Assembly (NCBI RefSeq): GCF_022808715.1 | Contig: NZ_JAKZKX010000019.1 | Location: forward strand, 1-43,049 | Direction: 5' to 3' | DNA: 43,049 nucleotides | DNA from: Fundidesulfovibrio agrisoli | GTDB taxonomy: Bacteria > Desulfobacterota > Desulfovibrionia > Desulfovibrionales > Desulfovibrionaceae | In this document: piece by piece, positions 13,604 through 34,308 of the stretch | How the letters are laid out: every line of letters begins with the position of its first letter | How positions within the stretch are numbered: position 1 is the first letter of the stretch | Notes under the pieces: generated by a model | Told to the model about the DNA's origin: nothing | The model's input: the letters and a program-made list of their open reading frames with translations, nothing else | Database searches by the model: none | Program-made: the position numbers and the translations under genes

Positions 13604-16051
13604 CTACCCGCCCTGCAACAGCAATATGCGCAGCGCTGGCCAGGCCCGCATCGTGTGCGTGAGAACACGACTCGGCAGCGATCTGTTCGCGGTGGAACCG
13701 GTGCCGAGCTGGCCATCGGAATTGTTGCCCCAGGCCCAGGCCGCGCCCTTGCCGTCCAGAGCCAGTGAATGGTTGCCGCCGGGGGCGACCGCCACCCAGG
13801 TCCGTTCCGCCCCCACCCGGACCGGGGAGGGCCGTTCCGTCGCGGAGCCGTCGCCGAGCTGGCCGAAGCCGTTGTATCCCCAGGCCCAGAGGCTGCCGTC
13901 CGTCTTGACCGCCAGGTTGTGATAGCTGCCTGAGGCAACCATGGCGCAGTTGTACATTCCGATCATCACCGGCGAGATCTGTTGGGTCGTCCCCCCATCG
14001 CCGAGCTGACCATGCGCGTTGGCCCCGAAAGCATACAGCGAGCCGCCGTACTTCATCGCCAGGCTGTGGATGTAGCCTGCGGCGACCGCGCCCCAGTTGG
14101 TGTCCAGGCCGTAACGCACCGGCCTGAACCTGGTTGTGGTGGAACCGTCCCCGACCTGGCCCCAGTCGTTGCGCCCCCATGCCCAGAGGCTGCCGTCGCC
14201 TCCGATGGCCAGCGCGTGGTCGCCCCCGGCCGCGACCTGGGCCCAGTCCTGAACAGGGTTCACGAGTATGGGCGACAGCCTGTTCTCGCTGCTTCCATCC
14301 CCCAGCTGGCCCAGGTTGTTGTGGCCCCAGGCCCGGAGCGTTCCGTCGCTCTTTATGGCCAGAGAATGGCGGTACCCCGTACTGATCATGGCCCAGTCGG
14401 CATCCTGGCCGACCTGCACGGGGCTGCTCCTGGAGGTGGTGCTGCCGTCGCCGAGCTGGCCGAAGGCGTTATACCCGAATGCCCACAAAGTGCCGTCGGT
14501 CTTAAGCGCCAGGGTGTGGTCGAAATGGGTCGCGACGGCGGCCCAGTCCGTGCCCGTGCCGACCCGCTTGGGGAGCAGCCGGTGCGTGGTGCCGCCGTCG
14601 CCGAGCTGGCCGTAATTGTTCCAGCCCCAGGTCCAGAGCGTTCCGTCGGGGTAGACGATGGCCGAGTGGCCGGAACCCGCCGCCATGTGGGTCGCCCCCA
14701 CGTACCAAACGGCGGGGGTGGCCCAGGAGGTGCTTTGCCAATCGCCCGCGCCGTTTTTCCCGACCGCGCGCAGGATATGCCGACCCTTGGCCAGCCCGCT
14801 CAGCGTGATCGGTGTTCCGACGGGTATTTCCCCGCTCCAGGCTCCGTCGTCGAGCTGATACCTGTAGGCCGTCACCCCGGATCCGCCCACGTCGAGGGCG
14901 GCGGAACTCCGCATGCCGGGACTGGCGCCGGAGACGACCGCCGTGACCCGCGCAAGCTTTGGCGTGATCTGCAGGGACGTCGTCCCGTTCCCCAAGGCGG
15001 AGAACTCCCCCCGGCCCCAGGACCAGAGCGCCCCCCCTGTCTTGAGGGCGAGCGTCTGGTCCGCGCCTCCGGCCACGGCGGCCCAGTGATTGTCCGTGCC
15101 GATCCTGAACGGGGCGGTGCGGTTCGTCGAGCCGCCGTCTCCGAGTTGAGAAAATTCGTCGTTGCCCCAGGCCCAGAGGCTCCCGTCGTTCTTGATGGCC
15201 AGGGTGTGGCTCATGCCGGTCGAAATGGCCATCCAGTCCGTGTCCATACCGATCCTGACAGGAGTTTTCCTGCTCGTCGTGGTCCCGTCGCCGAGCTGGC
15301 CCTTGTCGTTGTATCCCCAGGCCCAGAGGCTGCCATCGTTCTTCAGGGCCACGGTATGCCAGTACCCCGCACTGATGACGGCCCAATCCGTGTCAGTACC
15401 GATCTGCACCGGCGAAGGGCTGTTGAAGACCGGGCCATTTCCCAATTGCCCCATGGAATTGTCGCCAAAACCCCAGAGCGTGCCGTCGCTCTTGATTATC
15501 ATGGAATGCAGGACGCCCGCCGCCGCCCACACCGCCTTGTAGCCTTCGTGGATTTCCGCTGGCTGGTGGACGTCGTCCGTGGTGCCGTTGCCGAGTTGGC
15601 CGTCGGAGTTGATCCCCCAGGTCCAGAGGGTGCCGTTCTTTCTTATGGCCAACACATGGTAGGAGCCCAGGTATACCTTGGCCCAGTCGGAATCGAGGCC
15701 CACCTGTCCGGGCTGGTGCCTGCCAGTTGGGAAGTCGCCGCCGAGTTGGCCGTGGTCGTTGCTCCCCCAGGCCCAGAGGGAGCCTTCCTTCTTGATGGCC
15801 ATGGTGAAGACGGATTTTGCGGCCACCTGGTCCCAGAACTTTTCCTCCCCGATCTGCACCGGTGATGGCCTGGTGACGGTGGTTCCATCACCCACCTGGC
15901 CATAGAAGTTGGCCCCCCAGGCCCACAGTGAGCCGTCCGGGGCGACCCGGGCGCCATGGACCATGCCCGAGGCAATCTTTTCCGCCTGACAGGGAATACA
16001 CGAGAAAAGAAAGGCTGCTGCTACAAAGAGATGGAGAGAAAAATATCTCAT
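13604..16051 (-). CDS. Secreted RCC1-repeat protein, double seven-bladed propeller
   Basis: 815 residues from ATG 16051, chosen for its GGAGG and because it begins a signal peptide (MRYFSLHLFVAAAFLFS, cleavage near QA-EK); upstream codons in frame are rejected. It has 14 RCC1 repeats of about 50 residues, each with a core like DGSLWAWGxNxxGQLGDGTTT and then PVxIGxDxDWAxVAAG. Seven lie before and seven after an insert of about 75 residues (YRYQLDDGAWSGEIPVGTP through WYVG) that looks like an Ig/Big-type bacterial domain. That predicts two seven-bladed beta-propellers joined by a spacer, acting outside the inner membrane. No C-terminal anchor is seen. Neighbouring DNA is AT-richer, and the gene stands alone, suggesting transfer. 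The binding partner is unknown. Confidence 0.85.
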   Translation of the reverse strand: MRYFSLHLFVAAAFLFSCIPCQAEKIASGMVHGARVAPDGSLWAWGANFYGQVGDGTTVTRPSPVQIGEEKFWDQVAAKSVFTMAIKKEGSLWAWGSNDHGQLGGDFPTGRHQPGQVGLDSDWAKVYLGSYHVLAIRKNGTLWTWGINSDGQLGNGTTDDVHQPAEIHEGYKAVWAAAGVLHSMIIKSDGTLWGFGDNSMGQLGNGPVFNSPSPVQIGTDTDWAVISAGYWHTVALKNDGSLWAWGYNDKGQLGDGTTTSRKTPVRIGMDTDWMAISTGMSHTLAIKNDGSLWAWGNDEFSQLGDGGSTNRTAPFRIGTDNHWAAVAGGADQTLALKTGGALWSWGRGEFSALGNGTTSLQITPKLARVTAVVSGASPGMRSSAALDVGGSGVTAYRYQLDDGAWSGEIPVGTPITLSGLAKGRHILRAVGKNGAGDWQSTSWATPAVWYVGATHMAAGSGHSAIVYPDGTLWTWGWNNYGQLGDGGTTHRLLPKRVGTGTDWAAVATHFDHTLALKTDGTLWAFGYNAFGQLGDGSTTSRSSPVQVGQDADWAMISTGYRHSLAIKSDGTLRAWGHNNLGQLGDGSSENRLSPILVNPVQDWAQVAAGGDHALAIGGDGSLWAWGRNDWGQVGDGSTTTRFRPVRYGLDTNWGAVAAGYIHSLAMKYGGSLYAFGANAHGQLGDGGTTQQISPVMIGMYNCAMVASGSYHNLAVKTDGSLWAWGYNGFGQLGDGSATERPSPVRVGAERTWVAVAPGGNHSLALDGKGAAWAWGNNSDGQLGTGSTANRSLPSRVLTHTMRAWPALRILLLQGG

Positions 16052-16660
16052 TTTCTGCCTCCAGGTACGGAAATGCGATTGCCGGAATGGCCACGCACCC
16101 GTCACAACCTCTATAAACAGCGAATCTCACACCGCCTTTGTCTTGCATCGAATGAAATATGCGCCACCTGAACCACACTCTTGTTCGTCGGAAACCGTTC
16201 TGGGCTGGCGACACGCAATCCCCACACCACGCCAGCACGGTCTTATATCTGTATCCTTCCATGCAGGAATATTGAAAACAAGCAAGAACAAATTTCACAT
16301 AATTGCCGCGCATAATCAGCACGTTGCGATCAACGCCATACGCCTGGCGCATAATTCCCTGATTTATCACGAAATAGACAGGAGCGGGCAGAGAACTGCA
16401 CCGACACCCGGGCGCGGTGGCCCATGGAACCAGCCGGGACGGGAAAACGAGCCCGGGCAGATCGCCCCGAGCGCTCCCGCCGGTCACGTCCGGGGATGAG
16501 CGTCGGCATCATACGTCCAAGTCGGTGTCCGGGAAAACCCTAGGGCAATCCAATATTGCCTCCTGAGGCTGACAAATGATTCCAAGCTGGACTTATCTGG
16601 AGGCGCCTCCTTGATTTGTCTCTAAAATGAGTGCCCGCTGCAGCTCATCACGTTCCGAAA
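16052..16660. other. AT-richer intergenic region between RCC1 gene and nifB
   Basis: No gene supported. It should contain the minus-strand promoter of the RCC1 gene (the stretch around 16105-16125 is AT-rich) but no clear -35/-10 pair stands out. A loopless 12-bp palindrome GGAGGCGCCTCC lies at 16599-16610. Base composition is visibly lower in GC from about 16080 to 16380 and 16540 to 16670 than in the flanking genes. Confidence 0.5.
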
Positions 16661-16723: not shown

Positions 16724-18001
16724 TCAACCGCAGCCCTCGCCGCCGCCGGTGCAGCCGCTGCCCATCTTGCAGCCGCCGCCGCCCTTGGCGCGCAGGTGTT
16801 CGATGTCGCCGGTCTTGTAGATGGCGTCCAGGCCCTGGGTGATGAACCCGGACATGGCCACAACCTTCACGCCCTCCTCCTCCAGGATGGCCTGGGGGGT
16901 GTCGCCCACGCCGGAGACCAGCGCGGCCCTGCAGTCCGAGAGGCTCTTGGCCAGCTCGTACCAGCGCTTGGGGCCGGTGCCCGCGGCCGGGGCCGGGCGC
17001 GTCTCGACCATCTTGTAGCCGCCAGCGCCGTCCTCGCCCCAAATCTGGAAGCTCGCGGCCTCGCCCAGGTGCATGTTCACGAGCATGCCCTCCATGCTGG
17101 CCACGGCCACGTTAGGGCGGGAGGCGTCCAGCCCGGCGGACTTGTCGGATGCGCAGGCCGAGAGCAGCCCGGAGAACTGGCGGGAACAGTCCTTCTCCAG
17201 GAGGCCCACGGCGTCGGCGCGGCAGCGCTGGCAGTGGCGCATCTGGGGCAGGTAGCCCTCGGCCATGGCGCGGATGGCCTCCACGTCGTCCTTGGTGGGC
17301 TCGATGATGTGCTCGAATTTGGTGTCCTTGTTGGGGATGAGCGCCATGCAGTTGAGCAGGTTCACGCCCATGGACTTCATCTTGGCCGCGATGGCCTCGA
17401 TGTGCTGGTCGTTGACGCCGGGGATGATGATCGTGTTGATCTTGACGATCAGGTCCTTCTCCTTGAGGCGACGGATGGACTCCTCCTGGCGCTCAAGCAG
17501 GATGCGGGCGGCTTCGCGGCCGCGGTAGAGCACCTTGCCCACCCGCGCCCAGGAGTAGATCTTCTCGGCGATGTCCAGGTCGATGGCGTTGACCGTCACC
17601 GTGACGTGGGAGACGCCGATCTCGGCCAGCTCGTCCACGTGCTCGGCCAGCTCCAACCCGTTGGAGGACAGGCACAGGATCATGTCGGGCCACTTGGCCT
17701 TGATGCGGCGCATGGTCTCCAGCGTCTGCTTGGCGTTGGCCATGGGGTCGCCTGGGCCGGCGATGCCCACCACGGTGATGCGCGGCTCGGCCTCCAGCAC
17801 CTTCTCCATGTACAGGATGGCCTGGGCCGGGGTGAGCACCGAGGAGGTGACGCCCGGGCGCGACTCGTTCACGCAGTCGTACTTGCGGTTGCAGTAGTTG
17901 CACTGGATGTTGCACTTGGGCGCCACCGGCAGGTGGATGCGCGCGCAGGAGCCCTTGGCGTCCTTGTTGAAACAGGGGTGCTTGGAAAGATCCATGGCCA
18001 T
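16724..18001 (-). CDS. nifB: FeMo-cofactor biosynthesis protein NifB, fused to a NifX-like domain
   Basis: 425 residues. The radical SAM motif CNIQCNYC is at residues 30-37. NifB uses SAM to make the 8Fe-9S-C core (NifB-co) of the nitrogenase cofactor. Further conserved parts: ESRPGVTSSVLTPAQA and VVGIAGPGDPMAN. From about residue 300 a NifX/NafY-like cofactor-carrier domain follows (VAVASMEGMLVNMHLGEA to IYKTGDIE), and the protein ends in a Gly-rich tail with three Cys (GGGGCKMGSGCTGGGEGCG), possibly a metal-binding end. The start at 18001 has GGAG seven bases upstream; it begins 11 bases after nifN. It is the last gene of the operon. No separate nifX is present in the window, so the fused domain may supply that role. 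Confidence 0.96.
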   Translation of the reverse strand: MAMDLSKHPCFNKDAKGSCARIHLPVAPKCNIQCNYCNRKYDCVNESRPGVTSSVLTPAQAILYMEKVLEAEPRITVVGIAGPGDPMANAKQTLETMRRIKAKWPDMILCLSSNGLELAEHVDELAEIGVSHVTVTVNAIDLDIAEKIYSWARVGKVLYRGREAARILLERQEESIRRLKEKDLIVKINTIIIPGVNDQHIEAIAAKMKSMGVNLLNCMALIPNKDTKFEHIIEPTKDDVEAIRAMAEGYLPQMRHCQRCRADAVGLLEKDCSRQFSGLLSACASDKSAGLDASRPNVAVASMEGMLVNMHLGEAASFQIWGEDGAGGYKMVETRPAPAAGTGPKRWYELAKSLSDCRAALVSGVGDTPQAILEEEGVKVVAMSGFITQGLDAIYKTGDIEHLRAKGGGGCKMGSGCTGGGEGCG

Positions 18002-18012
18002 GGGGGTGCTCC

Positions 18013-19410
18013 TTAAATGTATCCGTACCCGATGTCGGAGTCGGTCTGTTTCTTTTCGATCATGGCGTTGACCACCCGGTCGAACAGCTCCTGGGCGCCC
18101 AGGTAGCAGAGGTGGTGCAGCCTGTGGCCGCCGAAACGGTCGTGGATGGGGAAGCCCACCCGGACCAGGGGAACGTTCAGCTCGCGGGCCAGGCGGTAGC
18201 CCTTGGAGTGGCCCAGGAAGAAGTCCGGGGCCAGTTCGCGGGCGCGGTCCGCGATGTCGTAGAAGTCCACGCCTTCGCGCACTTCGGGCATCTCGGGCAC
18301 CAGGCCCTCGCAGGCGGCCTCCACGGCGGCCTTGAGCCTTCCCGAGCGGCCGCCTCCGGCCACCAGCACCGGGGTCACGCCGATCTCGGCCATGAACGAG
18401 GTCAGGCCCACGATGAGGTCCTCCTCGCCGTAGATCACGCAGCGCTTCTGGGAGATGTATTTGTGGCCGTCCACGAAGGCGTCCAGCAGGCGGCCGCGTT
18501 CCAGGGCGTGGCGGCGGGGCGTGGGCGCGCAGGCCACTGACTCGAGGGCCTTGAAGAACTCGTCCGAGGCGCGCAGCCCGATGGGCAGGCCCATGCGGTG
18601 CGCGGGAACGCCGAAGCGCGCGGCCAGCAGCCCGGCTGCGGTGCCCGCCTCGCCCACGGGCGCCAGGGTGGCCCCGAACTCGAAGCTGGCCTTGGCCCCG
18701 CCCAGGGCGCGGATGGCGGCCACGGGGGTGCCGCCGGAGGGCAGCTTCTCGTAGTCGTCCAGGGCCGGGCCGTCGAGGGTCTCGGAGTAGTCGGGCAGGA
18801 TGGCGGCGTTCATCCCGAAGGAGGCGAACACGTCCTTCAGGTGCCGGATGTCCGCGCAGGAGACGAAGCCCGGGAAGCAGCCCACGGAGTCGTTGGGCTC
18901 GCCGGCCTGGGCCAGCTGCTCCACCACGGCCTTGACCGCGGCGGTGAAGCCTTCCATGTGCGAGCCGGAGTAGCTGGGGGTGGACACGTTGACCACGGGG
19001 GCCAGCTCCAGGTCGGCGAATTCGCGGCGGAACTCGCCCAGGATGCCGGGCACGTCGTCGCCGATGGTTTCGGTGAGGCAGGTGGTGGCCACGCCGATCA
19101 GACCCGCGCCGTACTTGTCCATGACAGTGAGCAGGCCCTTCTTCAGGTTGGGGCCGCCGCCGTAGATGGCCTGCTTCTCGCCCAGGGAGCTGGAGGCGAT
19201 GTCCATGGGCTCGCGGAAGTGGCTGATGATGTAGCGGCGCATGTAGGTGGCGCAGCCCTGCGAACCGTGCAGGAAGGGCACGCCGCCCTCGATGCCCTTG
19301 AACACCAGGGTGGCGCCCAGGGGTTTGCACAGCTTGCAGGCGTTGGTGGTGGAGACGAAGTTCTCCGCCGGGGCCTTGGCCGCCTTGATATTCTTCACGG
19401 GGGCGCTCAC
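18013..19410 (-). CDS. nifN: FeMo-cofactor scaffold protein NifN
   Basis: 465 residues starting at GTG 19410, which overlaps the nifE stop (GTGA) and has GAAGGAG upstream; the in-frame codons farther upstream lie within nifE and are not used. NifN is homologous to NifK and forms the NifEN complex, where NifB-co is matured with Mo and homocitrate. It keeps cluster-binding motifs CKLCKPLGATLVFKGI, LHGSQGCATYMRRY and TTCLTETIGDD, and the C-terminal HDRFGGHRLHHLCYLGA. Translational coupling with nifE suggests equal production of both subunits. Confidence 0.95.
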   Translation of the reverse strand: MSAPVKNIKAAKAPAENFVSTTNACKLCKPLGATLVFKGIEGGVPFLHGSQGCATYMRRYIISHFREPMDIASSSLGEKQAIYGGGPNLKKGLLTVMDKYGAGLIGVATTCLTETIGDDVPGILGEFRREFADLELAPVVNVSTPSYSGSHMEGFTAAVKAVVEQLAQAGEPNDSVGCFPGFVSCADIRHLKDVFASFGMNAAILPDYSETLDGPALDDYEKLPSGGTPVAAIRALGGAKASFEFGATLAPVGEAGTAAGLLAARFGVPAHRMGLPIGLRASDEFFKALESVACAPTPRRHALERGRLLDAFVDGHKYISQKRCVIYGEEDLIVGLTSFMAEIGVTPVLVAGGGRSGRLKAAVEAACEGLVPEMPEVREGVDFYDIADRARELAPDFFLGHSKGYRLARELNVPLVRVGFPIHDRFGGHRLHHLCYLGAQELFDRVVNAMIEKKQTDSDIGYGYI

Positions 19411-20804
19411 AGGGAACACTCCTTCGGCAGGTCCGCGCCTTCGCCGGCCAGAACCTTGCCGCTCCTGCGGGGTACGAACTTCCACACCGGGCTCATCACG
19501 GTGCGGTGGACCTCCAGGGCGAAATTGTACATGCCCACGAACCCTTCCAGGGCTTCCTTGCGCTCGTGGTTGTGGTCGCAGAAGCCCACGCCCAGCTTGT
19601 AGGCGATGGGGCGCTCCTTCACGCCGCCCACGAAGATGTCCACGTCCTTCTCCTTGAGGAAGGCGGAGAGCTCCAGGGGGTTGGCGTCGTCCACGATGAT
19701 GGTGCCGGGGTCGCAGATGGAGGCCAGCTCCTCGTAGTCCTCCTCGGTGCCCGTCTGGGAGCCCGCGATCACCACTGACATGCCCAGGTGGCGGAAGGCC
19801 TTGATGAGGGAGAAGGCCTTGAAGGCGCCGCCCACGTAGATGGCGGCCTTCTTGCCTTCGAGGTCCTTTCTGAATTCCTGGAGCTTGGGGTAGAGCACGG
19901 CCAGCTCTTCCTTCACCAGCTCCTGGGTGCGCACCAGGATGCCGGGGTCTTTGTCCTTGAAGAAGCGGGCAACGGTGTAGAGTGCCTCGGCCATGTCCTC
20001 GATGCCGAAGTAGGAGACCTTGACGAAGGGGGTGCCGTACTTCTCCTTCATCATCTTGGCCAGGTCCATGGTGGAGCCGGAGCACTGCACCACGTTGAGC
20101 GCCGCGCCGTGGGCCCGGGCGATGTCGCCCACGCGGCCGTCGCCGGTGATGTTGGCCACCACCTTGATGCCCATGCGCTCGAAATATTCGCGGATGATCC
20201 AGATCTCGCCCGCCAGGTTGAAGTCGCCCAGGATGTTCAGCGACAGCGGCCCGATGTCCGAGGTGTCGCCGGTGCCCATCAGGGTGAACATGGCCTTGCA
20301 GGCGGCCAGGTAGCCCTCGCGCTTGTTGCCCTTGAAACCCTCGGACTGCACCGGGATCACGGGGATGCCCTTCTCGGCCGAGACCTTCTTGCACACGGCC
20401 TGGAGGTCGTCCCCGATGATGCCCACGATGCAGGTGGAGTAGACGAAGGCGGCCTTGGGCTGGTGGCGGTCGATGAGTTCGGTGAGGGCGGCGTAGAGCT
20501 TCTTCTCGCCGCCGAAGATCACGTCGGTCTCCTGCAGGTCCGTGGAGAAGGAGAGGCGGTGCAGCTCCGGCCCGGAGGAGAGCGCGCCCCGGATGTCCCA
20601 GGTGTAGGCGGCGCAGCCGATGGGTCCGTGCACCAGATGCAGGGCGTCCGCGATGGGATAGAGCACCACGCGCGAGCCGCAGAACACGCAGGCCCGCTGG
20701 CTCACGGCCCCTGCCAGGGAGTCGCGGTTGCAGGCCAGCTTGAAGGGCCCTTCGCCCTTGCGGTGGATCTGGTCCTTGCGTTCTTCGAATATCAGGTCGG
20801 ACAC
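19407..20804 (-). CDS. nifE: FeMo-cofactor scaffold protein NifE
   Basis: 465 residues, homologous to NifD and partner of NifN. Recognised by CVFCGSRVVLYPIADALHLV, HGPIGCAAYTWDIRG, YSTCIVGIIGDD and the NifE-type central part GEIWIIREYFERMGIKVVANI, ending near EVHRTVMSPVWKF. It lies 24 bases after a 36-residue small ORF that appears to share its sigma-54 promoter. The stop overlaps the nifN GTG. Confidence 0.96.
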   Translation of the reverse strand: MSDLIFEERKDQIHRKGEGPFKLACNRDSLAGAVSQRACVFCGSRVVLYPIADALHLVHGPIGCAAYTWDIRGALSSGPELHRLSFSTDLQETDVIFGGEKKLYAALTELIDRHQPKAAFVYSTCIVGIIGDDLQAVCKKVSAEKGIPVIPVQSEGFKGNKREGYLAACKAMFTLMGTGDTSDIGPLSLNILGDFNLAGEIWIIREYFERMGIKVVANITGDGRVGDIARAHGAALNVVQCSGSTMDLAKMMKEKYGTPFVKVSYFGIEDMAEALYTVARFFKDKDPGILVRTQELVKEELAVLYPKLQEFRKDLEGKKAAIYVGGAFKAFSLIKAFRHLGMSVVIAGSQTGTEEDYEELASICDPGTIIVDDANPLELSAFLKEKDVDIFVGGVKERPIAYKLGVGFCDHNHERKEALEGFVGMYNFALEVHRTVMSPVWKFVPRRSGKVLAGEGADLPKECSL

Positions 20805-20828
20805 GGTGTGCCTCGTTGGTTGTGCGGC

Positions 20829-20939
20829 TTAGGACGCCAGCGTTCTCAGACAGAGAGCGTAATACAGAGCCTGGATAACCAAACTGCCTGCCAGGGCTCC
20901 TGCCATTTCGAGAGTGTCGCGGATGGTGGTTGCGCTCAT
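20829..20939 (-). CDS. Tiny hydrophobic peptide gene upstream of nifE (36 residues)
   Basis: 36 codons from ATG 20939 with GGGAG seven bases upstream, ending at TAA 20829-20831, 24 bases before nifE. It begins MSATTIRDTLEMAG and its last 18 residues are SLVIQALYYALCLRTLAS, enough for one short membrane-associated helix. Another tiny ORF at 21177-21275 ends in a closely similar stretch (11 of 18 identical: SL-IQA--Y--CL-TLA). It is the first coding unit after the sigma-54 promoter at 20987-21003, so it should be co-transcribed with nifENB. Not recognised as a known Nif protein. Paralogy and good ribosome sites at both copies make a real gene likely; function is unknown. Confidence 0.7.
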   Translation of the reverse strand: MSATTIRDTLEMAGALAGSLVIQALYYALCLRTLAS

Positions 20940-20986
20940 GATCCTACTCCCTGTCTGTTGGTGGCTTGTTGTTTTCTACCAACGAC

Positions 20987-21003
20987 ATCAAGTCTCGTGC
21001 CAA
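20987..21003 (-). promoter_or_regulatory. Sigma-54 promoter of the small ORF-nifE-nifN-nifB operon
   Basis: Minus strand: TTGGCACGAGACTTGAT. TGGCACG (-24) and TTG at -12 have the right spacing; only the C of TTGC differs. It lies 48 bases before the start codon of the 36-residue ORF. No TGT-N10-ACA NifA site was found within about 120 bases upstream. Confidence 0.8.
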
Positions 21004-21076
21004 TAGAAAAAAGTCGCGATTCCAAATGGTTGACAATGCAGACCCTGATGATGCGACACAAAAACGCACACTATTG

Positions 21077-21088
21077 TACAAATTTGTA
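21077..21088. promoter_or_regulatory. Palindromic operator candidate upstream of the nifE promoter
   Basis: TACAAATTTGTA is a perfect 12-bp palindrome, about 75 bases upstream of the sigma-54 -24 element, at a distance usual for an enhancer site. A near copy, TACAATTTTGTT, lies upstream of nifH at 31547-31558. The protein that binds is unknown. Confidence 0.45.
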
Positions 21089-21119
21089 AGACACGTATGT
21101 CCGAAGCCGGAAAAAGGGA

Positions 21120-21152
21120 GCGCCCCCGGCCGCTTCGGGCGGCCGGGGGCGC
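21120..21152 (-). terminator. Terminator after the 32-residue small ORF
   Basis: A 14-bp perfect stem (21120-21133 with 21139-21152) and a 5-base loop. On the minus strand TTTTT follows five bases after the stem. It separates the 32-residue ORF from the nifE promoter region, so the two tiny ORFs are in different transcripts. Confidence 0.75.
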
Positions 21153-21176
21153 AAGGGGAAATGGATGACGTGGGGG

Positions 21177-21275
21177 CTACCTGGCCAGGGTCTCCAGGCA
21201 ATAGACGTACATGCCCGCCTGGATGGTCAGGCTGCTCAGCAAGGTCAAGGCCATGGGCCTGAAAAGGTCCGACAT
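21177..21275 (-). CDS. Tiny hydrophobic peptide gene, paralogue of the one before nifE (32 residues)
   Basis: 32 codons from ATG 21275 with GGAGG seven bases upstream, ending at TAG 21177-21179. It begins MSDLFRPMALTLL and ends SLTIQAGMYVYCLETLAR. Its C-terminal 18 residues share 11 with the 36-residue ORF before nifE, including the IQA, Tyr, Cys-Leu and TLA positions. One short membrane-associated helix is predicted. A strong terminator follows 24 bases downstream and a hairpin (21293-21313) lies just before the ribosome site. An upstream in-frame Met exists but has no ribosome site. Function unknown. Confidence 0.65.
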   Translation of the reverse strand: MSDLFRPMALTLLSSLTIQAGMYVYCLETLAR

Positions 21276-21292
21276 GGTGTATCCTCCGGCTG

Positions 21293-21313
21293 CGGCGGCC
21301 GCGCTGGCCGCCG
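21293..21313 (-). promoter_or_regulatory. Hairpin next to the ribosome site of the 32-residue ORF
   Basis: CGGCGGCC, loop GCGCT, GGCCGCCG: an 8-bp stem ending about five bases before the GGAGG. In the mRNA it could limit ribosome access or protect the 5' end. No sigma-54 or good sigma-70 promoter was recognised in 21314-21553. Confidence 0.4.
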
Positions 21314-21538
21314 GAAAAGGTGCGATTGCGCCGAACCGGCCCAGCGGGCCGCTCGACAAGCTGGAGGAAGGCTAGGCTTGAATTGTTACAGGCCAGCCGC
21401 GCGTGCGTGGACTTTCAGATGACAAACGGGGAATGTTCAGAGCTTGCGCTGGGCGCGCGCCAAGCTGCGGGCAGCGAGGCCCAGGCCAGTGTCGCGCGTT
21501 TGAATGCCCCCCAGAGGGGCGAAGCCTGACCGATCAAA

Positions 21539-21553
21539 AACGCCCTACCGGGC
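21539..21553 (-). terminator. Weak terminator after the GGDEF gene
   Basis: Minus strand: GCCC-GGTA-GGGC-G followed by TTTTT (21540-21536), directly after the GGDEF stop codon. The stem is only 4 bp, so termination may be partial. Confidence 0.4.
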
Positions 21554-22294
21554 TCAGGCCAGGGCCAGGCGTGCCCGGCCGCCGTCCTTGGCGGCGCCCA
21601 GGGCGGCCTGCGCCGCGCGCACCAGGGCCAGGGGGGCGTCGCCGCGCCCGGGCGTCATGGTGGCCAGGCCCACGCTCACGCTGACGAAACCGCCGTGGAC
21701 CGACTCCAGGTGGGGGATCTCCATGCCCGCCACCTCGTCCAGGATGCGCTGGCCCACCACGGCAGCGCCCTCGGCCGCGGTGCCAGGCAGCAGGGCCGCG
21801 AAGGTGTCTCCCTCCAGGCGGGCCACCACGTCCACCTCGCGGTACAGGCAGCGCATGAGCGCGCGGGCCACGGCCCGCAGGCATTCATCCCCGGCCAGGG
21901 AGCCGTAGTGCACGTTGTAGGACTGAAGGCTGTCCACGTTCACCAACAGCAGGGACAGGGAGGTGCCCTCGCGCTGGGCCTGGGCCCAATCGCGTGAGAG
22001 CAGGCGCTCGAAGCTGGGGCGGTTCATGGCCCCGGTGAGGCCGTCCACCTGGGTGAGTTGGGTGACCTGCTCCAGGGCGTCGTCCAGGTCCTGCTGGACG
22101 GAGCGGGCCAGGTCGGCCACGCGCCGGGCGCGCTGGGCCAGGGCTTCGTACTCCTCCAGGAGTTCGGCGAGGTGGGGGGCCAGGGTGTTGGACTCTCCGC
22201 ACGCCACGGCGGCCTGTTCGGCTTCCGAAAGCGCCCGCCTGATCCTGGCGGCGACGCTTTTCTCTTTTTCCAACAGGTCCGGGGCGATTTCCAT
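21554..22294 (-). CDS. GGDEF-domain protein with degenerate active site
   Basis: 246 residues: an N-terminal coiled-coil helical part (about 1-80) and a GGDEF domain (about 82-245). The entry motif DGLTGAMNRPSFERLL and the metal-site region VNVDSLQSYNVHYG are recognisable, but the GGDEF motif itself is EGDTF (161-165): the first Gly is Glu and the catalytic/metal-binding Glu is Thr. Diguanylate cyclase activity is therefore doubtful; it may bind GTP or c-di-GMP or act as a regulator. It is cytoplasmic, with no membrane segment. It lies between the metal-ATPase cassette and the small ORF, inside the nif locus. Confidence 0.85.
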   Translation of the reverse strand: MEIAPDLLEKEKSVAARIRRALSEAEQAAVACGESNTLAPHLAELLEEYEALAQRARRVADLARSVQQDLDDALEQVTQLTQVDGLTGAMNRPSFERLLSRDWAQAQREGTSLSLLLVNVDSLQSYNVHYGSLAGDECLRAVARALMRCLYREVDVVARLEGDTFAALLPGTAAEGAAVVGQRILDEVAGMEIPHLESVHGGFVSVSVGLATMTPGRGDAPLALVRAAQAALGAAKDGGRARLALA

Positions 22295-22563
22295 GGGGGC
22301 TCCTCTGGCGTGTGATGACGGCGCATCTTAGCCGCAGGAGGGGCGGGCGTCCAGCGGACAGGGGCCTCCTGGCAGGGTCAGAAGCAATCCTCCCGGTTGC
22401 CATTATTCCCATTGCCCAGACTTTGAACATGAACAGATCAGGACCAGCGATGCTTTTAACACCTCGGAATCACCTGATCTCATCAAGTGCATTTCATGAA
22501 TATTTCATCTTGACCTTGGAATTGATTTTGATAATCACTGCCAAAATCACTCAGGAAACCTTG
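22295..22563. other. Divergent intergenic region, AT-rich
   Basis: Between the minus-strand GGDEF gene and the plus-strand transposase-like gene. From about 22425 to 22560 the DNA is distinctly AT-rich. ATGAA-TAT-TTCAT (22496-22508) is a perfect inverted repeat that could be an operator. A TTGACC (22511-22516) with TAATCA-like bases 16 bases downstream is a possible sigma-70 promoter for the plus-strand genes. Confidence 0.35.
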
Positions 22564-23181
22564 ATGAAGCCGTATCCAGCCCCCCCGCCCCGCCGCAAGA
22601 ATCGTTACGCCCTGAACGCCAAGGTGGCCGAGACCAAACTGCTCGCCCTGGCCGACGCCATGGCCAAAGGGGCCACCGCCAGCGACGCGTCCCGCTCCCT
22701 GAAGCTCAACCGCAACACCGTCAACCGCTACTACCAACTCTTCAGGCAGGCGCTCTCCAAGGACGTGCCTGAAAGCCTCAGGACGGTGCCCTCCGGCGCT
22801 CCGGTCATCGGGTTGTTCCTGACATCCACGGCGACCCACTTCCGCGTCTTGCCCGACAGCCAGCGCGACACGGCGCTGCAGATCTTCCGCGGGAGCCTGG
22901 ACGCCAACATGGCCTGTCTCACCCCCGGCTGGCCGGGCTACGACGCGCTGGGGCAGCCCTCCACGGATACATTCCAGATCATGCCCTGTTGCCTGGTGAG
23001 CGCGGCGGGACAGCAGCGCCTCAAAAATTCCTGGAGCAACATCCGCGCCCGGCTCTGCAACTTCCGAGGCATCCCGCGCCAGAATTACTGGCAGCACCTC
23101 CACGTCTGCGAGCTGTTCGACACCCTCGGGCAGGAGGAACTGCAGCAGCGCCTGATCCAGGCCCTGCTCGCCGCCGGATGA
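22564..23181 (+). CDS. Transposase-derived protein (IS1595/ISXO2-like) lacking DDE residues
   Basis: 205 residues from ATG 22564. Residues 20-62 form the helix-turn-helix seen at the start of IS1595-group transposases (DASRSLKLNRNTVNRYYQLF). The rest follows the ISXO2-like transposase fold in outline: PVIGLFLTSTATHFRVLP, then TPGWPGYDALG, then LKNSWSNIRARLCNFRGIP and YWQHLHVCELF. The part that normally carries the first Asp is missing, the second Asp (SDGWRGYD in active enzymes) is Pro121, and the Glu of the IESFW motif is Lys154. It is intact as an ORF, with no terminal inverted repeats seen, so it looks like a domesticated DNA-binding protein rather than a live element. It precedes a metal-ATPase operon by 64 bases and may regulate it. 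Confidence 0.7.
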   Translation: MKPYPAPPPRRKNRYALNAKVAETKLLALADAMAKGATASDASRSLKLNRNTVNRYYQLFRQALSKDVPESLRTVPSGAPVIGLFLTSTATHFRVLPDSQRDTALQIFRGSLDANMACLTPGWPGYDALGQPSTDTFQIMPCCLVSAAGQQRLKNSWSNIRARLCNFRGIPRQNYWQHLHVCELFDTLGQEELQQRLIQALLAAG

Positions 23182-23245
23182 CGGCGCTTCAAGGCTTCCA
23201 ACCGTTTCGCATCCCCTGAACCATCACCCACTGGGAGGACACCTC

Positions 23246-23503
23246 ATGAATATCGATTCCAAATCCACATTCCTGTTCCTTGGCGGGGCCGCCCTCGGCG
23301 CCCTGGCCGCATACGCCCTGACCCGCGAGAACTCGGCGCTCAAACCCGTGCTCACCGATCTGATGGCGGGCGGCCTGAACCTCAAGGAGAAATTCCAGGG
23401 CGTGGTGGAACACGCCAAGGAGAACCTGGACGACCTGATGGCCGAGGCCGAGCACGCCCGAAAGTCCCGCGAGGCAACCGCCGGGGAGACCAAGGCCTCG
23501 TGA
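23246..23503 (+). CDS. Small single-helix membrane protein of the metal-ATPase operon
   Basis: 85 residues: one transmembrane helix (about 8-25, TFLFLGGAALGALAAYAL) followed by a soluble amphipathic helical part and a charged tail. The start has GGGAGG upstream. It overlaps the ATPase gene (GTGA at 23500-23503), so the two are coupled. In mycobacteria small one-helix DUF1490 proteins (PacL) sit beside CtpC-type ATPases and act as partners; the arrangement is similar here but sequence homology is not shown and no His/Asp metal motif is seen. Confidence 0.75.
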   Translation: MNIDSKSTFLFLGGAALGALAAYALTRENSALKPVLTDLMAGGLNLKEKFQGVVEHAKENLDDLMAEAEHARKSREATAGETKAS

Positions 23504-25650
23504 ATTGCCAGGTCGTCCATTCCACGCCGGGCCGGGTCCGGGTGCGCTTCACGCCGCCCCGCACGGTGCTCGGCCTCTCTCACAGGCTGAAACACATCGA
23601 GCGGATGGACGGGGTGGCGAGCGCCCGCGTCAGCCCCCGCACCGGCTCGGTATTGCTGCGGTTCGATCCTGAGGCGGTCACTCCCCGCATCCTCCTGGAC
23701 GCACTGGTTTCCCGCGGGGGCGGCCCGTCCGCGGCAAACTCGGCGGATTCCGGGACCGATGCCCTGGTGCCCAAGATCATGCCTGGAGAGGCGGCTCCGG
23801 ACTGCCGCACCCGCAGGCCGGACGAGCGCCCCACGCCGGGCTTCCTGGGCATTGTCGCGCCGCTGCTGTTGCGCCCCGTGCTGCCCGCCGGGTTCCGGCT
23901 GGCCCTGAGCCTGCGCGGTGCGCTGCCCCGCCTGTGGCAGGGCCTGCGGGCGCTGGGTTCGGGGAAGCTCTCCATGGACGTGCTGGACGCCGCCGCCCTT
24001 GGCATCTGCATCGTGCGCCGCGACTACCGGTCGCTCGGCACCATCACCCTGATGCTCTCCGCCGGGGAGTTCCTCGAATCCTGGAGCCGCAGGCGCTCCG
24101 AGGAGAGCCTGGCCGCCACGCTCGCCTCCCAGACCGTCTGGGCCTGGGTCAGGCGCGGCAGCGAGGAGGAGCAGCTGGACGCCAGGCTGGTGAAGCCCGG
24201 CGACCTGGTCGTGATCCGCCTGGGGGCGGTGGCCCCGGTGGACGGCGTGGTGGAGGAAGGCGAAGCCCTGGTGAACCAGAGCTCCATGACCGGGGAGGTG
24301 CGCGGGGTGCCCAAGCGCCCCGGCAGCGCCGTCTTCGCCGGGACCGTGGTGGAGGAGGGCGAGGTCGTGGTCAAGGCCACGGGCGGCAGCGACGCCACGC
24401 GCTGGCGGCGCATGCTCGCCCTGGTGGAGCAGGCCGAGCTGCGCAAGGCCGGGGTGCAGAGCCAGGCCGAAAAATTGGCCGGGAACCTGGTGCCCTTCTC
24501 GCTGGGGCTGGCGGGGGCGGTCTACGCCGTCACCCGCGACCCGCGCCGGGCCGCCTCCGTGCTGCTGGTGGACTATTCCTGCGCCATCAAACTGGCCACG
24601 CCCCTGGCCGTGCTGGCCTGCATGCGCCAGATGGCCGCCTCGGGCGTGGTGGTCAAGGGCGGCGCCCCCCTTGAAAACCTGGCCAAGGCAGACGTGTTCG
24701 TCTTCGACAAGACCGGCACCCTGACCATGGCCGAACCCGCCGTGCGCGAAGTGCTCCCCTTCGGAGGGCACACCCGCGAGGACGTGCTGCGCATCGCCGC
24801 CTGCCTGGAGGAGCACTTCCCCCATCCGGTGGCCCGCGCCGTGGTGCGCCAGGCCAAAATCGAGGACATCGTCCACCAGGAGGAACACGCCCGCGTGGAA
24901 TACGTGGCCGCCCACGGGGTGGCCAGCTGGCTCAAGGGCCAGCGGGTGCTGCTGGGCAGCAGGCACTTCATCCACGAGGACGAGAAGGTGCCCCTGGGGG
25001 AAGCCGAGGACGTGGCGAACGTCTTGGCGGAACAGGGGCACTCCCTGCTGTACCTGGCCGTGGGGGACGCCCTGGCCGGGCTCATCACCCTGGACGACCC
25101 CCTGCGGCCCGAAGCGGCCCAGGCCCTCCAGGCGCTGCACGACACCGGGGTCAAGCGCGTCGTCATGCTCACCGGCGACCTGGACGGCATGGCCGCGCGC
25201 ATCTCAAAACAGCTCGGCATCACCGAGTGGGTCGCCCAGGTGCTCCCGGACGAAAAGCACCGGGTGGTCGAGGATCTGCTGGCCGAGGGCCACACCGTGG
25301 CCATGGTGGGCGACGGGCTCAACGACGCCCCGGCCCTGGTCAGGGCCTCCGTGGGCATCTCCATGCACCAGGGCGCGGACGTCACCAGGGAGGTGGCCGA
25401 CGTGGTGCTCACCACCGGCGACCTCACCGCCCTGGCCAGGGCGCGCCTGCTGGCCAAGTCCGCGCTGGAAAGGGTCAAACGCAACTACCTGCTGATCGTC
25501 GGGGTCAACACCCTGCTGCTGGCGGGCGGGCTGGTGGGCAGGCTTTCGCCCCAGATCTCGGCGCTGATGCACAACAGCGCCACCCTGGCGGCGGCCGTCA
25601 ACGCCCTGCGCCCGCTCAAGGCGGTTCAGCCTGCGACGAAGGAGTCCTGA
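23500..25650 (+). CDS. P1B-type heavy-metal ATPase with non-canonical membrane motif
   Basis: 716 residues starting at GTG 23500. The N-terminal part (about 1-75) is an HMA-like domain without CxxC (VVHSTPGRVRVRF). Core P-type motifs: SSMTGE in the actuator domain, FDKTGTLT with the phosphorylated Asp near residue 405, the P1B-specific HP dipeptide (EEHFPHPVARAV), MLTGDLDGMA and MVGDGLNDAPAL. The ion-site motif in the sixth membrane helix, usually CPC, here is YSCAIKLATP. This Ser-Cys-Ala variant is found in a CtpC-like group whose metal is unsettled (Zn or Mn have been proposed for mycobacterial CtpC). It probably exports a transition metal across the inner membrane. It sits between two HMA/helix partner proteins, within the nif locus but on the opposite strand. 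Confidence 0.9.
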   Translation: MNCQVVHSTPGRVRVRFTPPRTVLGLSHRLKHIERMDGVASARVSPRTGSVLLRFDPEAVTPRILLDALVSRGGGPSAANSADSGTDALVPKIMPGEAAPDCRTRRPDERPTPGFLGIVAPLLLRPVLPAGFRLALSLRGALPRLWQGLRALGSGKLSMDVLDAAALGICIVRRDYRSLGTITLMLSAGEFLESWSRRRSEESLAATLASQTVWAWVRRGSEEEQLDARLVKPGDLVVIRLGAVAPVDGVVEEGEALVNQSSMTGEVRGVPKRPGSAVFAGTVVEEGEVVVKATGGSDATRWRRMLALVEQAELRKAGVQSQAEKLAGNLVPFSLGLAGAVYAVTRDPRRAASVLLVDYSCAIKLATPLAVLACMRQMAASGVVVKGGAPLENLAKADVFVFDKTGTLTMAEPAVREVLPFGGHTREDVLRIAACLEEHFPHPVARAVVRQAKIEDIVHQEEHARVEYVAAHGVASWLKGQRVLLGSRHFIHEDEKVPLGEAEDVANVLAEQGHSLLYLAVGDALAGLITLDDPLRPEAAQALQALHDTGVKRVVMLTGDLDGMAARISKQLGITEWVAQVLPDEKHRVVEDLLAEGHTVAMVGDGLNDAPALVRASVGISMHQGADVTREVADVVLTTGDLTALARARLLAKSALERVKRNYLLIVGVNTLLLAGGLVGRLSPQISALMHNSATLAAAVNALRPLKAVQPATKES

Positions 25651-25651
25651 C

Positions 25652-26062
25652 ATGCTCACGAGCATCCTGCCCGGCCGCATCCGGGCGCGGCTGGAGCCCG
25701 GCTTCCCCGAACACGCGCTGCAGGCACTGCGCGCCGCCCTGGGCGAGGCCGTCACGGGGGTGACGCTTAAGCACAACCCGCGCAGCAACAGCCTGCTGAT
25801 AACCTACCCGCCCGGCCCCGGGCACGACCGCGCGGTGCGCAAAACCCTGGAGGAGCGGCTCGCGCCCGCCGCACCCTGCGCCAAAAGGAGCCTCGCCTGG
25901 CCCTCCATGCGCAGCGTGAAGCGGGGCATGGCCGCAAGCCTGGGCCTGGCCCTGGCCGCCCTGGCCCTGCGCAACGAGCGCGCCCACGCCTGGGCAGGAG
26001 GCGCGTTCGCCGCGCTGCTGGCAAGGCACCTCTACGTGTACCGCAAGCGGCTGTTCAAATAG
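25652..26062 (+). CDS. HMA-like domain membrane protein
   Basis: 136 residues. Residues 1-70 resemble the N-terminal HMA-like domain of the ATPase (LPGRIRARLEPGFPEHALQAL, then VTLKHNPRSNSLLITY) without a CxxC metal motif. A hydrophobic stretch follows (about 92-125) with a basic end (YVYRKRLFK). GGAG lies seven bases before the ATG, two bases after the ATPase stop. It is probably a membrane partner or assembly factor of the ATPase. Confidence 0.75.
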   Translation: MLTSILPGRIRARLEPGFPEHALQALRAALGEAVTGVTLKHNPRSNSLLITYPPGPGHDRAVRKTLEERLAPAAPCAKRSLAWPSMRSVKRGMAASLGLALAALALRNERAHAWAGGAFAALLARHLYVYRKRLFK

Positions 26063-32580: not shown

Positions 32581-34308
32581 ATGGAATCCACCTATCCCGG
32601 GCTCTCGCAGGACGAGATTCTTCGCCTCTTGAGCACCGTGCTCGGTGTCTGCCGCGAGGGGGTGTCCATCACCTCCCCCGAGGGGAACATCGAGTGGGTC
32701 AACCCGGCGTTCACGGCCATCACCGGCTACGACGCCGGCGAGGTCGTGGGCCGCAACCCGCGAGTGCTCAAGTCCGACCGGCACGACGACGCCTTCTACG
32801 CGGACATGTGGCGGGCCATTTCCGAGACCGGGCACTGGTCCGGCGAGATATGGAACCGCCGCAAGTCCGGCGAGGCCTACCCGGAGTGGCTGGCCATCAC
32901 CGCCGTGCGCGACGGCTCCGGCGCGCTGCAGCGCTATGTGGCCGTGTTCCACGACCTCACGGACATCAAGCGCGACAAGGACCTCATCCACCAGCAGACC
33001 TACCACGACGCCCTGACCGACCTGCCCAACCGGTTCCTCTTCCAGGACCGCCTGGGCGTGGCCCTGCGCAACGCCGCCAAGTCCGGCGGGCTTTTGGGCG
33101 TGATCTGCCTGGACCTGGACCGCTTCCGGGCCGTCAACGACAGCCTGGGGCACCGCGCCGGGGATCTGCTCCTGGCGGAGGTCTCGCGCAGGCTGACCCC
33201 GCTGATGCGCCAGGCCGACACCCTCTCCCGCTACGGGGGCGACACCTTCTACATGCTGCTCACCGGCCTGCGCGAGCCCGAGGACGCCGCGCACGTGGCG
33301 GGCCGCATCCTGACCAGCCTGGCCGCCCCGCTGGAGATACTGGGGCAGGAACTGCGCATCTCGGCCAGCGTGGGCATCGCCATCTCGCCCAACGACGGCA
33401 CGGACCCCGGCCAGCTCATGCGCAACGCCGAGATCGCCATGTACACCTCCAAACGCTCCGGCCCCAGCGGCTACGCCTTCTTCACGGAGGACCTGGGCGA
33501 CAGGGTGCTGCGCGGCCTGCAGTTGGAGAACGACCTGCGCAAGGCCCTGGCCAGGGATGAGTTCAGGGTGCACTACCAGCCCAGGGTGGACCTGCTCACC
33601 GGCTCCATCCAGGGCATGGAGGCCCTGGTGCGCTGGCACCGCTCCGACGGGTCCGTGGTCTCCCCGGCGGAATTCATCCCCCTGGCCGAGGAGACGGGCC
33701 TCATCGTCCCCCTGGGGGAGATCGTGCTGGAGCAGGCTTGCAGGCAGGCCCGCATCTGGGCCGACGAAGGGCACGCCCACCTGAAGCTGGCCGTGAACCT
33801 CTCCGCCCGGCAACTGGAGCAGCCCGGCCTGGTGGACACCGTGATGGCCATCCTGGAGCGCACGGGACTGCCACCCACCAGCCTGGAGCTGGAGGTGACC
33901 GAGAGCCTCTTTCTCACCGGGTTCGAGCAGGCCCACAGCCGCCTTTCCGCCCTGACCGTCATGGGCATCACCGTGGCCCTGGACGACTTCGGCACGGGCT
34001 ACTCCTCCCTGAGCTATCTCAAGCGGTTGCCCATCACCACGCTCAAGATCGACAAATCCTTCATAGGCGGCCTGCCCTCCGACCAGGAGGACGCGGCCAT
34101 CGTCAGCTCCGTCGTCTCCATCGCCAAGAACCTGGGCCTGGAGGTGGTGGCGGAGGGCGTCGAGACTGAGGAGCAGCTTGAATTCCTCAAGGCGCTGGAT
34201 TGCGGCGGCGGGTTCCAGGGCTACCTTTTCTCCAAGCCGGTGCCCGCGCGCGACTTCGCCAGGCTCCTGGCCAGGGAGACCCCCGGCACGGAGGCAGGGA
34301 AGCCGTGA
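32581..34308 (+). CDS. PAS-GGDEF-EAL protein, predicted c-di-GMP phosphodiesterase
   Basis: 575 residues, cytoplasmic. PAS domain about 15-130 (SITSPEGNIEWVNPAFTAIT, then YVAVFHDLTDIKRDKDL). GGDEF domain about 135-295, with the motif changed to GGDTF (about 219-223), so cyclase activity is doubtful. EAL domain about 310-560 with the catalytic set intact: MEALVRW, NLSARQ, ELEVTES, LDDFGTGYSS, KIDKSFI and VAEGVETEEQ. It should hydrolyse c-di-GMP, with the GGDEF part perhaps binding GTP as an activator. The PAS domain has no clear heme or flavin motif visible. Its stop overlaps the nifV GTG, so it is coupled to homocitrate synthesis. Confidence 0.92.
   Translation: MESTYPGLSQDEILRLLSTVLGVCREGVSITSPEGNIEWVNPAFTAITGYDAGEVVGRNPRVLKSDRHDDAFYADMWRAISETGHWSGEIWNRRKSGEAYPEWLAITAVRDGSGALQRYVAVFHDLTDIKRDKDLIHQQTYHDALTDLPNRFLFQDRLGVALRNAAKSGGLLGVICLDLDRFRAVNDSLGHRAGDLLLAEVSRRLTPLMRQADTLSRYGGDTFYMLLTGLREPEDAAHVAGRILTSLAAPLEILGQELRISASVGIAISPNDGTDPGQLMRNAEIAMYTSKRSGPSGYAFFTEDLGDRVLRGLQLENDLRKALARDEFRVHYQPRVDLLTGSIQGMEALVRWHRSDGSVVSPAEFIPLAEETGLIVPLGEIVLEQACRQARIWADEGHAHLKLAVNLSARQLEQPGLVDTVMAILERTGLPPTSLELEVTESLFLTGFEQAHSRLSALTVMGITVALDDFGTGYSSLSYLKRLPITTLKIDKSFIGGLPSDQEDAAIVSSVVSIAKNLGLEVVAEGVETEEQLEFLKALDCGGGFQGYLFSKPVPARDFARLLARETPGTEAGKP

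Follow-up and report, generated by a model that had tools for sequence, protein, structure and literature searches.

How, at the membrane, nitrogen-fixing bacteria keep nitrogenase cofactor assembly in step with the supply of iron is, to our knowledge, poorly understood. A stretch of 43,049 nucleotides from Fundidesulfovibrio agrisoli (contig NZ_JAKZKX010000019.1, positions 1 to 43,049, analysed whole and here termed the window) raises a related question, namely what two very small hydrophobic peptides, designated a and b, are doing at the promoter end of its nifENB genes. Such genes are of a kind that annotation tends to miss and, if the role proposed below is correct, the pair at the nifENB promoter would be a small, testable link between the iron and nitrogen-fixation regulons.

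Two paralogous peptides upstream of nifE

Peptide a (36 aa, MSATTIRDTLEMAGALAGSLVIQALYYALCLRTLAS; 36 codons with an ATG start) is encoded at 20829-20939 and peptide b (32 aa, MSDLFRPMALTLLSSLTIQAGMYVYCLETLAR; 32 codons from an ATG) at 21177-21275, both on the minus strand, with the mechanically defined ORF of b beginning at a TTG upstream of its ATG. Along the minus strand toward nifE, the order is GGDEF gene, b, terminator, sigma-54-type promoter, a, nifE, nifN and nifB, with a the first gene of the nifENB unit and b monocistronic by layout. Both ORFs are positioned as given in the initial annotation, and the 11 identities it reported within the last 18 residues are exact. Of the 66,693 18-residue windows drawn from every open frame of the 43 kb, the next-best match to the tail of a has 7 of 18 identities, and 200,000 shuffles of the tail of b never exceeded 9 identities to the tail of a.

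Seven genomes of the genus were compared, designated G000 (the window species) to G006, with G003 the nearest sister; G006 is 66% complete and the six others are near-complete. A profile search of the genus identified 11 family members in six of the seven genomes, with E-values from 8e-14 to 8e-18. Both peptides are present in G000, G001, G002, G003 and G005, so that among the near-complete genomes a homologue of a is found in five of six and of b in all six. G004 has b alone, as neither the profile search nor reading the locus revealed an a homologue, and a is therefore dispensable in G004. G006 has no peptide and is also without a NifE match at E <= 1e-120. The order GGDEF gene, b, [a], nifE is constant in all six genomes with peptides, b starts 267-387 bases past the GGDEF stop codon, and Shine-Dalgarno-like motifs, judged by eye, precede all 11 family members, consistent with the ribosome sites originally claimed for a and b. 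The NifE proteins of the genus members are 93-98% identical. G002 also has a second NifE-like gene (G002:C28:425160-426482; 47% identity), perhaps an alternative nitrogenase cofactor gene, and the peptide profile has no match on that contig.

The initial annotation had suggested that rates of synonymous and nonsynonymous change be compared, and a synonymous excess is apparent. Over the last 25 codons, third-position changes are the commonest and the pooled pN/pS is 0.37 for b (15 pairs) and 0.56 for a (10 pairs), with the pairs non-independent and several dS values saturated. For the closest pair, G000 and G003, the core of b has 5 nonsynonymous versus 3 synonymous changes, mostly at first positions (dN 0.10, dS 0.18), and this comparison by itself is weak evidence of constraint. 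The original description of hydrophobic, paralogous peptides that are transcribed separately by layout and conserved in related genomes is supported. Judged by presence and conservation, b appears to be the older gene, with a seemingly a duplicate that came under the nifENB promoter.

The promoter of the nifENB unit

The nifE gene (19407-20804, minus strand; 465 aa) scores 625.8 bits against TIGR01283, for which the cut-off is 505.1, and nifB (16727-18001, minus strand) scores 398.1 against TIGR01290, above the cut-off of 343.65. The gene between them (18016-19383, minus strand) scores 283.9 against TIGR01285, below the cut-off of 326.8, and is named nifN by best fit and position. Downstream of nifB, 13604-16105 (minus strand) encodes an 833-aa protein with many WAWG-type repeats, RCC1-like by eye, and G003 has an ORF comparable in size and location.

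The sigma-54-type -24/-12 promoter of a-nifENB, TGGCACGAGACTTGAT, is located at 20987-21002 (minus strand) and is conserved in all six genomes, as TGGCACG-N4-TTGA in five and with TTGG in G002, and 9 of 10 consensus positions are present in all six. The -12 box thereby differs from TTGC, the canonical sigma-54 form. With one mismatch allowed, the window has 5 sigma-54-type sites versus 3.6 expected, and the case for this promoter rests therefore on its conservation in the relatives. Region by region, 0.3-3.7% of shuffles equal its score. The initial proposal that a leads nifENB behind such a promoter is supported in five of the six genomes.

NifA-type upstream sequences conform to TGT-N10-ACA. 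None is present near the promoter of a, and the single exact match in the window is at 1173-1188. Alignment does reveal a 10-bp-period repeat, TTAC-N6-GTAC-N6-GTGC-N6-GTGT, at 21056-21089 (minus strand) that begins about 87-100 bases before the -24 element and is recognisable in five of six genomes, with TTAC-N6-GTAC exact in just G000 and G003. No such repeat was found before the nifH of the window. This repeat is a candidate enhancer of the a-nifENB promoter that may be used by an unusual nif activator, and we take it to resemble VnfA/AnfA sites. An AnfA/VnfA-like regulator has been proposed for the nitrogenase operon of D. vulgaris, according to the sections of PMC4641369 used here.

Of 104 loci in other genera, 56 have a nifK on the nifE strand and upstream of nifE; the remaining 48 have none within the available sequence, often only 1.5 kb. 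The exact-pattern sigma-54-type site is present in all six genomes of this genus and in none of 24 family loci of other genera, inspected over the 1.5 kb before nifE. Given this difference, and nifK being upstream in many loci elsewhere, the sequences suggest that an insertion in this genus separated nifENB from nifHDK and that nifENB has its own promoter.

Iron and the regulation of b

An intrinsic terminator at 21120-21152 (minus strand), with 14 G-C pairs followed by TCCCTTTTTC (z -6.3), separates b from a, and the claim that b has its own terminator is sound for the window. In all six genomes, the best hairpin within 200 nt of the b stop codon begins 24-36 nt after that stop. The 12 bases after the hairpin contain 6, 2, 3, 6, 7 and 5 T in G000 to G005, respectively, the low T counts of G001 and G002 making these two hairpins poor examples of a classical terminator.

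No sigma-54 site above shuffles is present upstream of b in any of the six genomes. The best candidates match 6-8 of 10 positions and the best of these, in G004, is matched by 11% of shuffles. Overlapping double Fur boxes are, in the parts of PMC545781 consulted, a feature of Desulfovibrio, and the regulon listed there includes gdp (GGDEF) and feoAB. A Fur matrix was constructed from 42 Desulfovibrio sites taken from that source, and pairs of boxes offset by 6 bp were scored. In the six regions upstream of b, 1,935 bases in total, the best double Fur box scores 44.2 in G001, 36.4 in G002, and 33.2 in both G004 and G005; there is no double Fur box before b in G000 (best -4.4) or G003 (best 1.0). 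The cut-off of 33 was picked after the scores were seen, and the G004 and G005 sites barely pass it. When a 19-bp Fur consensus was used, the best site was equalled in 0 of 300 shuffles for G001, G002 and G005 and in about 4 of 300 for G004; in G000 and G003, 71% and 97% of shuffles, respectively, were as good. Two further consensus forms were applied, of which one agreed and with the other the G005 site did not stand out (18% of shuffles). As a positive control, the regions upstream of FeoB score 39.3-44.7 in six of the seven genus genomes and 25.2 in G001, with the sites 350-980 bases before the FeoB_N match. As negative controls, 2 of 104 nifE loci from other genera (729 kb) reach 33 (40.1 and 35.3), as do none of 24 other-genus GGDEF loci (best 30.3).

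With a double Fur box in four of six genomes and no sigma-54 site in any, the likely signal for b is iron, a control that probably extends to most of the species. As G000 has no such box, iron control is not established for the window's own b, and the box was either lost, or never gained, in the window species and G003. The initial annotation had tentatively assigned both peptides to diazotrophic growth, which agrees with the sigma-54-type promoter for a but is not supported for b, and it missed the iron link.

The best double overlapping Fur box in the 43-kb window (score 41.5) is at 22516-22538 (plus strand), between the GGDEF gene and a divergent HTH gene. The double boxes upstream of the GGDEF gene in the relatives score 35.1 in G003, 40.5 in G004, 29.9 in G005, 27.1 in G002 and 21.7 in G001. 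This box precedes the divergent gene, which is the HTH gene in the window, an arrangement checked in the genomes except G001. Each of the six genomes therefore has, in the GGDEF-b island that adjoins nifENB, one or more double boxes scoring at least 33.

A predicted single helix with one conserved face

Nine columns are invariant across the a and b types (L12, S15, L16, I18, Q19, Y23, C26, L27 and L30, b numbering). The b types carry CLE[TS]LA, and the a types have R, K or T where b has E. The invariant residues are positioned on one helical face, with a best period of 95 degrees (permutation p 0.0004 for all 11 peptides, 0.0006 for a and 0.021 for b). All 11 peptides have one moderately hydrophobic stretch, with maximum 19-residue mean hydropathies of 1.38-2.01, and AlphaFold2, run on b only and with an 11-row alignment, predicts a single helix spanning residues 2-31 (mean pLDDT 90.5). 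The peptides accordingly fit the pattern of a single-helix small membrane protein, with one hydrophobic helix of about 20 residues, the helix itself being that of the b model. As the hydropathy is moderate, insertion of a and b into the membrane is likely, and no more than that, in line with the membrane character first suggested. The single conserved face leads us to propose a common docking site.

We tentatively suggest, as a reading that falls a little short of probable, that the paralogues a and b are both translated as membrane peptides of one helix each, and that this one face docks them on a common membrane partner and so links NifENB assembly to iron. The suggestion builds on features read from the genomes: a family kept at a constant position, a sigma-54-type promoter ahead of a, Fur boxes ahead of b in four species, a hairpin that isolates b, and conservation concentrated on one side of the helix. 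It further supposes translation, a membrane location, particular inducing conditions and action on the same membrane protein. The docking face would be the L-S/L-Q-Y-C-L residues on the conserved side of the helix. Peptide b would be made at iron shortage, when Fur is derepressed, and a while nitrogenase is being built, and both would act on one membrane protein, altering how active or how stable it is; the most plausible target would be a protein that functions in the handling of iron or another metal. Cofactor assembly by NifENB would thereby be matched to iron supply. A rather unlikely elaboration is a peptide adaptor with two inputs, the same membrane-docking helix being issued by Fur as b and by the nif activator as a, with one membrane protein integrating iron status with cofactor demand, for example in that an iron importer or store is directed toward NifB/NifEN.

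MgtS, a single-helix small membrane protein, acts on MgtA. AcrZ, which acts on AcrB, is also small, with apparently one membrane helix, and is thought to bind the larger membrane protein (PMC7267776, as far as the portion used here describes it). Peptides a and b, set beside these two without sequence comparison, are likewise small with apparently one membrane helix, but differ as a paralogous pair that is apparently under two regulators, of iron and of nitrogen fixation. A small protein that acts on a membrane transporter, AmtB1, in nitrogen adaptation is exemplified by sP36 of Methanosarcina mazei; in contrast to a and b, sP36 is a soluble protein of 61 aa with no transmembrane helix, and no nif or iron tie is described for it in the sections of PMC10714827 drawn on here. 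The Desulfovibrio Fur regulon is similar in having double Fur boxes that overlap and a GGDEF gene tied to Fur, gdp being compared by description, but the available part of PMC545781 names no small hydrophobic peptide, and here the island adjoins nifENB.

The main rival of this regulatory role is that a and b are small structural components of an enzyme complex in the membrane, two paralogues expressed under two regimes. Their size, single helix and one conserved face would fit such subunits equally well. KdpF, for example, is a small subunit of the Kdp pump. CydX, of 37 aa and with a single helix (PMC4325964 and PMC6005532, in part), is a component of cytochrome bd oxidase, described among small proteins of a single hydrophobic helix (PMC6005532, same part). 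The likeness of a and b to CydX and KdpF considered here is one of size and helix, and, unlike these, a and b do not have a gene for a large membrane subunit beside them in every species. In about 20 kb per genome, no membrane enzyme gene is beside the peptides in all species, and the neighbouring ATPase gene is absent from G003 and G005. As the initial annotation had found no Nif protein to match, so neither peptide matches a family in Pfam, NCBIfam or PHROGs, and a structural role is, on balance, unlikely. Their layout suggests a mode of action like that of known small membrane proteins.

A role for a chiefly as a leader ORF is improbable; in that case its translation would open or couple the nifE ribosome site, and the peptide itself would matter little. 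As the first gene behind the promoter, a is suitably positioned, and the a-to-nifE distance is 22-26 bases in all five genomes with a. However, the amino acids of a are conserved, its invariant residues are the same as those of b, and b has no downstream gene before its hairpin. In G004, moreover, the same promoter precedes nifE without a.

The length and hydrophobicity of a and b and their tandem, paralogous arrangement would also suit the small hydrophobic toxins of type I toxin-antitoxin systems, but this is very improbable given the sigma-54-type promoter, the Fur boxes, the position in the nifENB unit and the conserved polar face, and no Rfam family is recognised in 20700-22700. The hairpin initially noted at the b ribosome site is present but ordinary (z -1.35, with 16 of 200 shuffles as good). 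As it does not exceed shuffles and no Rfam family matches within 20700-22700, it was rejected as a regulatory RNA.

Distribution beyond the genus

Outside the genus, searches of 59 relatives gave weak matches only, with E-values of 0.155-0.70 in four genomes for a and 0.338-0.858 in six genomes for b. A profile search of 199 genomes of the order had matches at E <= 0.1 in 18, of which 5 are genus members and the remaining 13 have partial matches only (E 0.024-0.093). At the level of the phylum, 1 of 395 genomes had a match at E <= 0.001, this being the genome of the window; other genus members were apparently not drawn. Nothing was found in 104 nifE loci from other genera, 729 kb in total (best E 1.2). 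These consist of 24 loci plus the best 80 of 571, those 80 having NifE identities of <= 83%, and a control search of five genus loci recovered all nine of their peptides. The conservation at Desulfovibrionales nif loci that was first envisaged therefore holds within the genus, in six of seven genomes, but not for nif loci of the order generally. Four pattern matches in a general genome contig collection were not confirmed, which is weak evidence as near relatives were possibly left out and matches to a query of 31 residues are difficult to confirm. None of 32 pattern matches in viral contigs was confirmed as a relative, plasmids gave one weak match (Sulfitobacter, E 0.4), and a profile search of the PDB returned no significant match (the best, at E 0.091, was partial). 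Among the papers searched, no title or opening of an abstract mentions these peptides.

Such short peptides hold little information and their family is confined to one genus, but a chance or non-coding resemblance of a and b has a negligible probability, being already contradicted by conservation. The next-best tail match in the window is just 7 of 18, and 11 family members share invariant residues, ribosome sites and a fixed position. The initial annotation had likewise argued against chance.

Neighbouring genes

The GGDEF-domain protein encoded upstream of b (21554-22294, minus strand; PF00990, E 5e-36) is syntenic in all six genomes. By eye its GGDEF motif is degenerate, EGDTF in the window and EGNTF in G004, and it is probably not a normal diguanylate cyclase. 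Copies of the island elsewhere were considered and rejected: the GGDEF relatives at the 24 loci of other genera have no strong double Fur box, and so are probably different GGDEF proteins.

Divergent from the GGDEF gene, 22564-23181 (plus strand, start codon inferred) encodes a small HTH protein with matches to HTH_23 (E 0.0087) and IS1595-like (E 0.0022) that are both below cut-off. This is followed, at 23246-26062 (plus strand), by genes for an 85-aa protein, a heavy-metal P-type ATPase (TIGR01525, 484 bits versus a cut-off of 346) and a 136-aa protein, the three possibly being read from the Fur box at 22516. Together, 22516-26062 comprises a double Fur box followed by four genes in a row, located within the nif cluster, an arrangement that presumably resembles a ferrosome (fez) operon. 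The ATPase is syntenic in four of the six near-complete genomes. It was rejected as a general partner of the peptides, as the two species without it, G003 and G005 (best identities of 38% and 35%, respectively), keep both a and b. A second cyclic-di-GMP-type protein, with a PAS-GGDEF-EAL organization, is encoded in the nif region near nifH, at 32581-34305 (plus strand).
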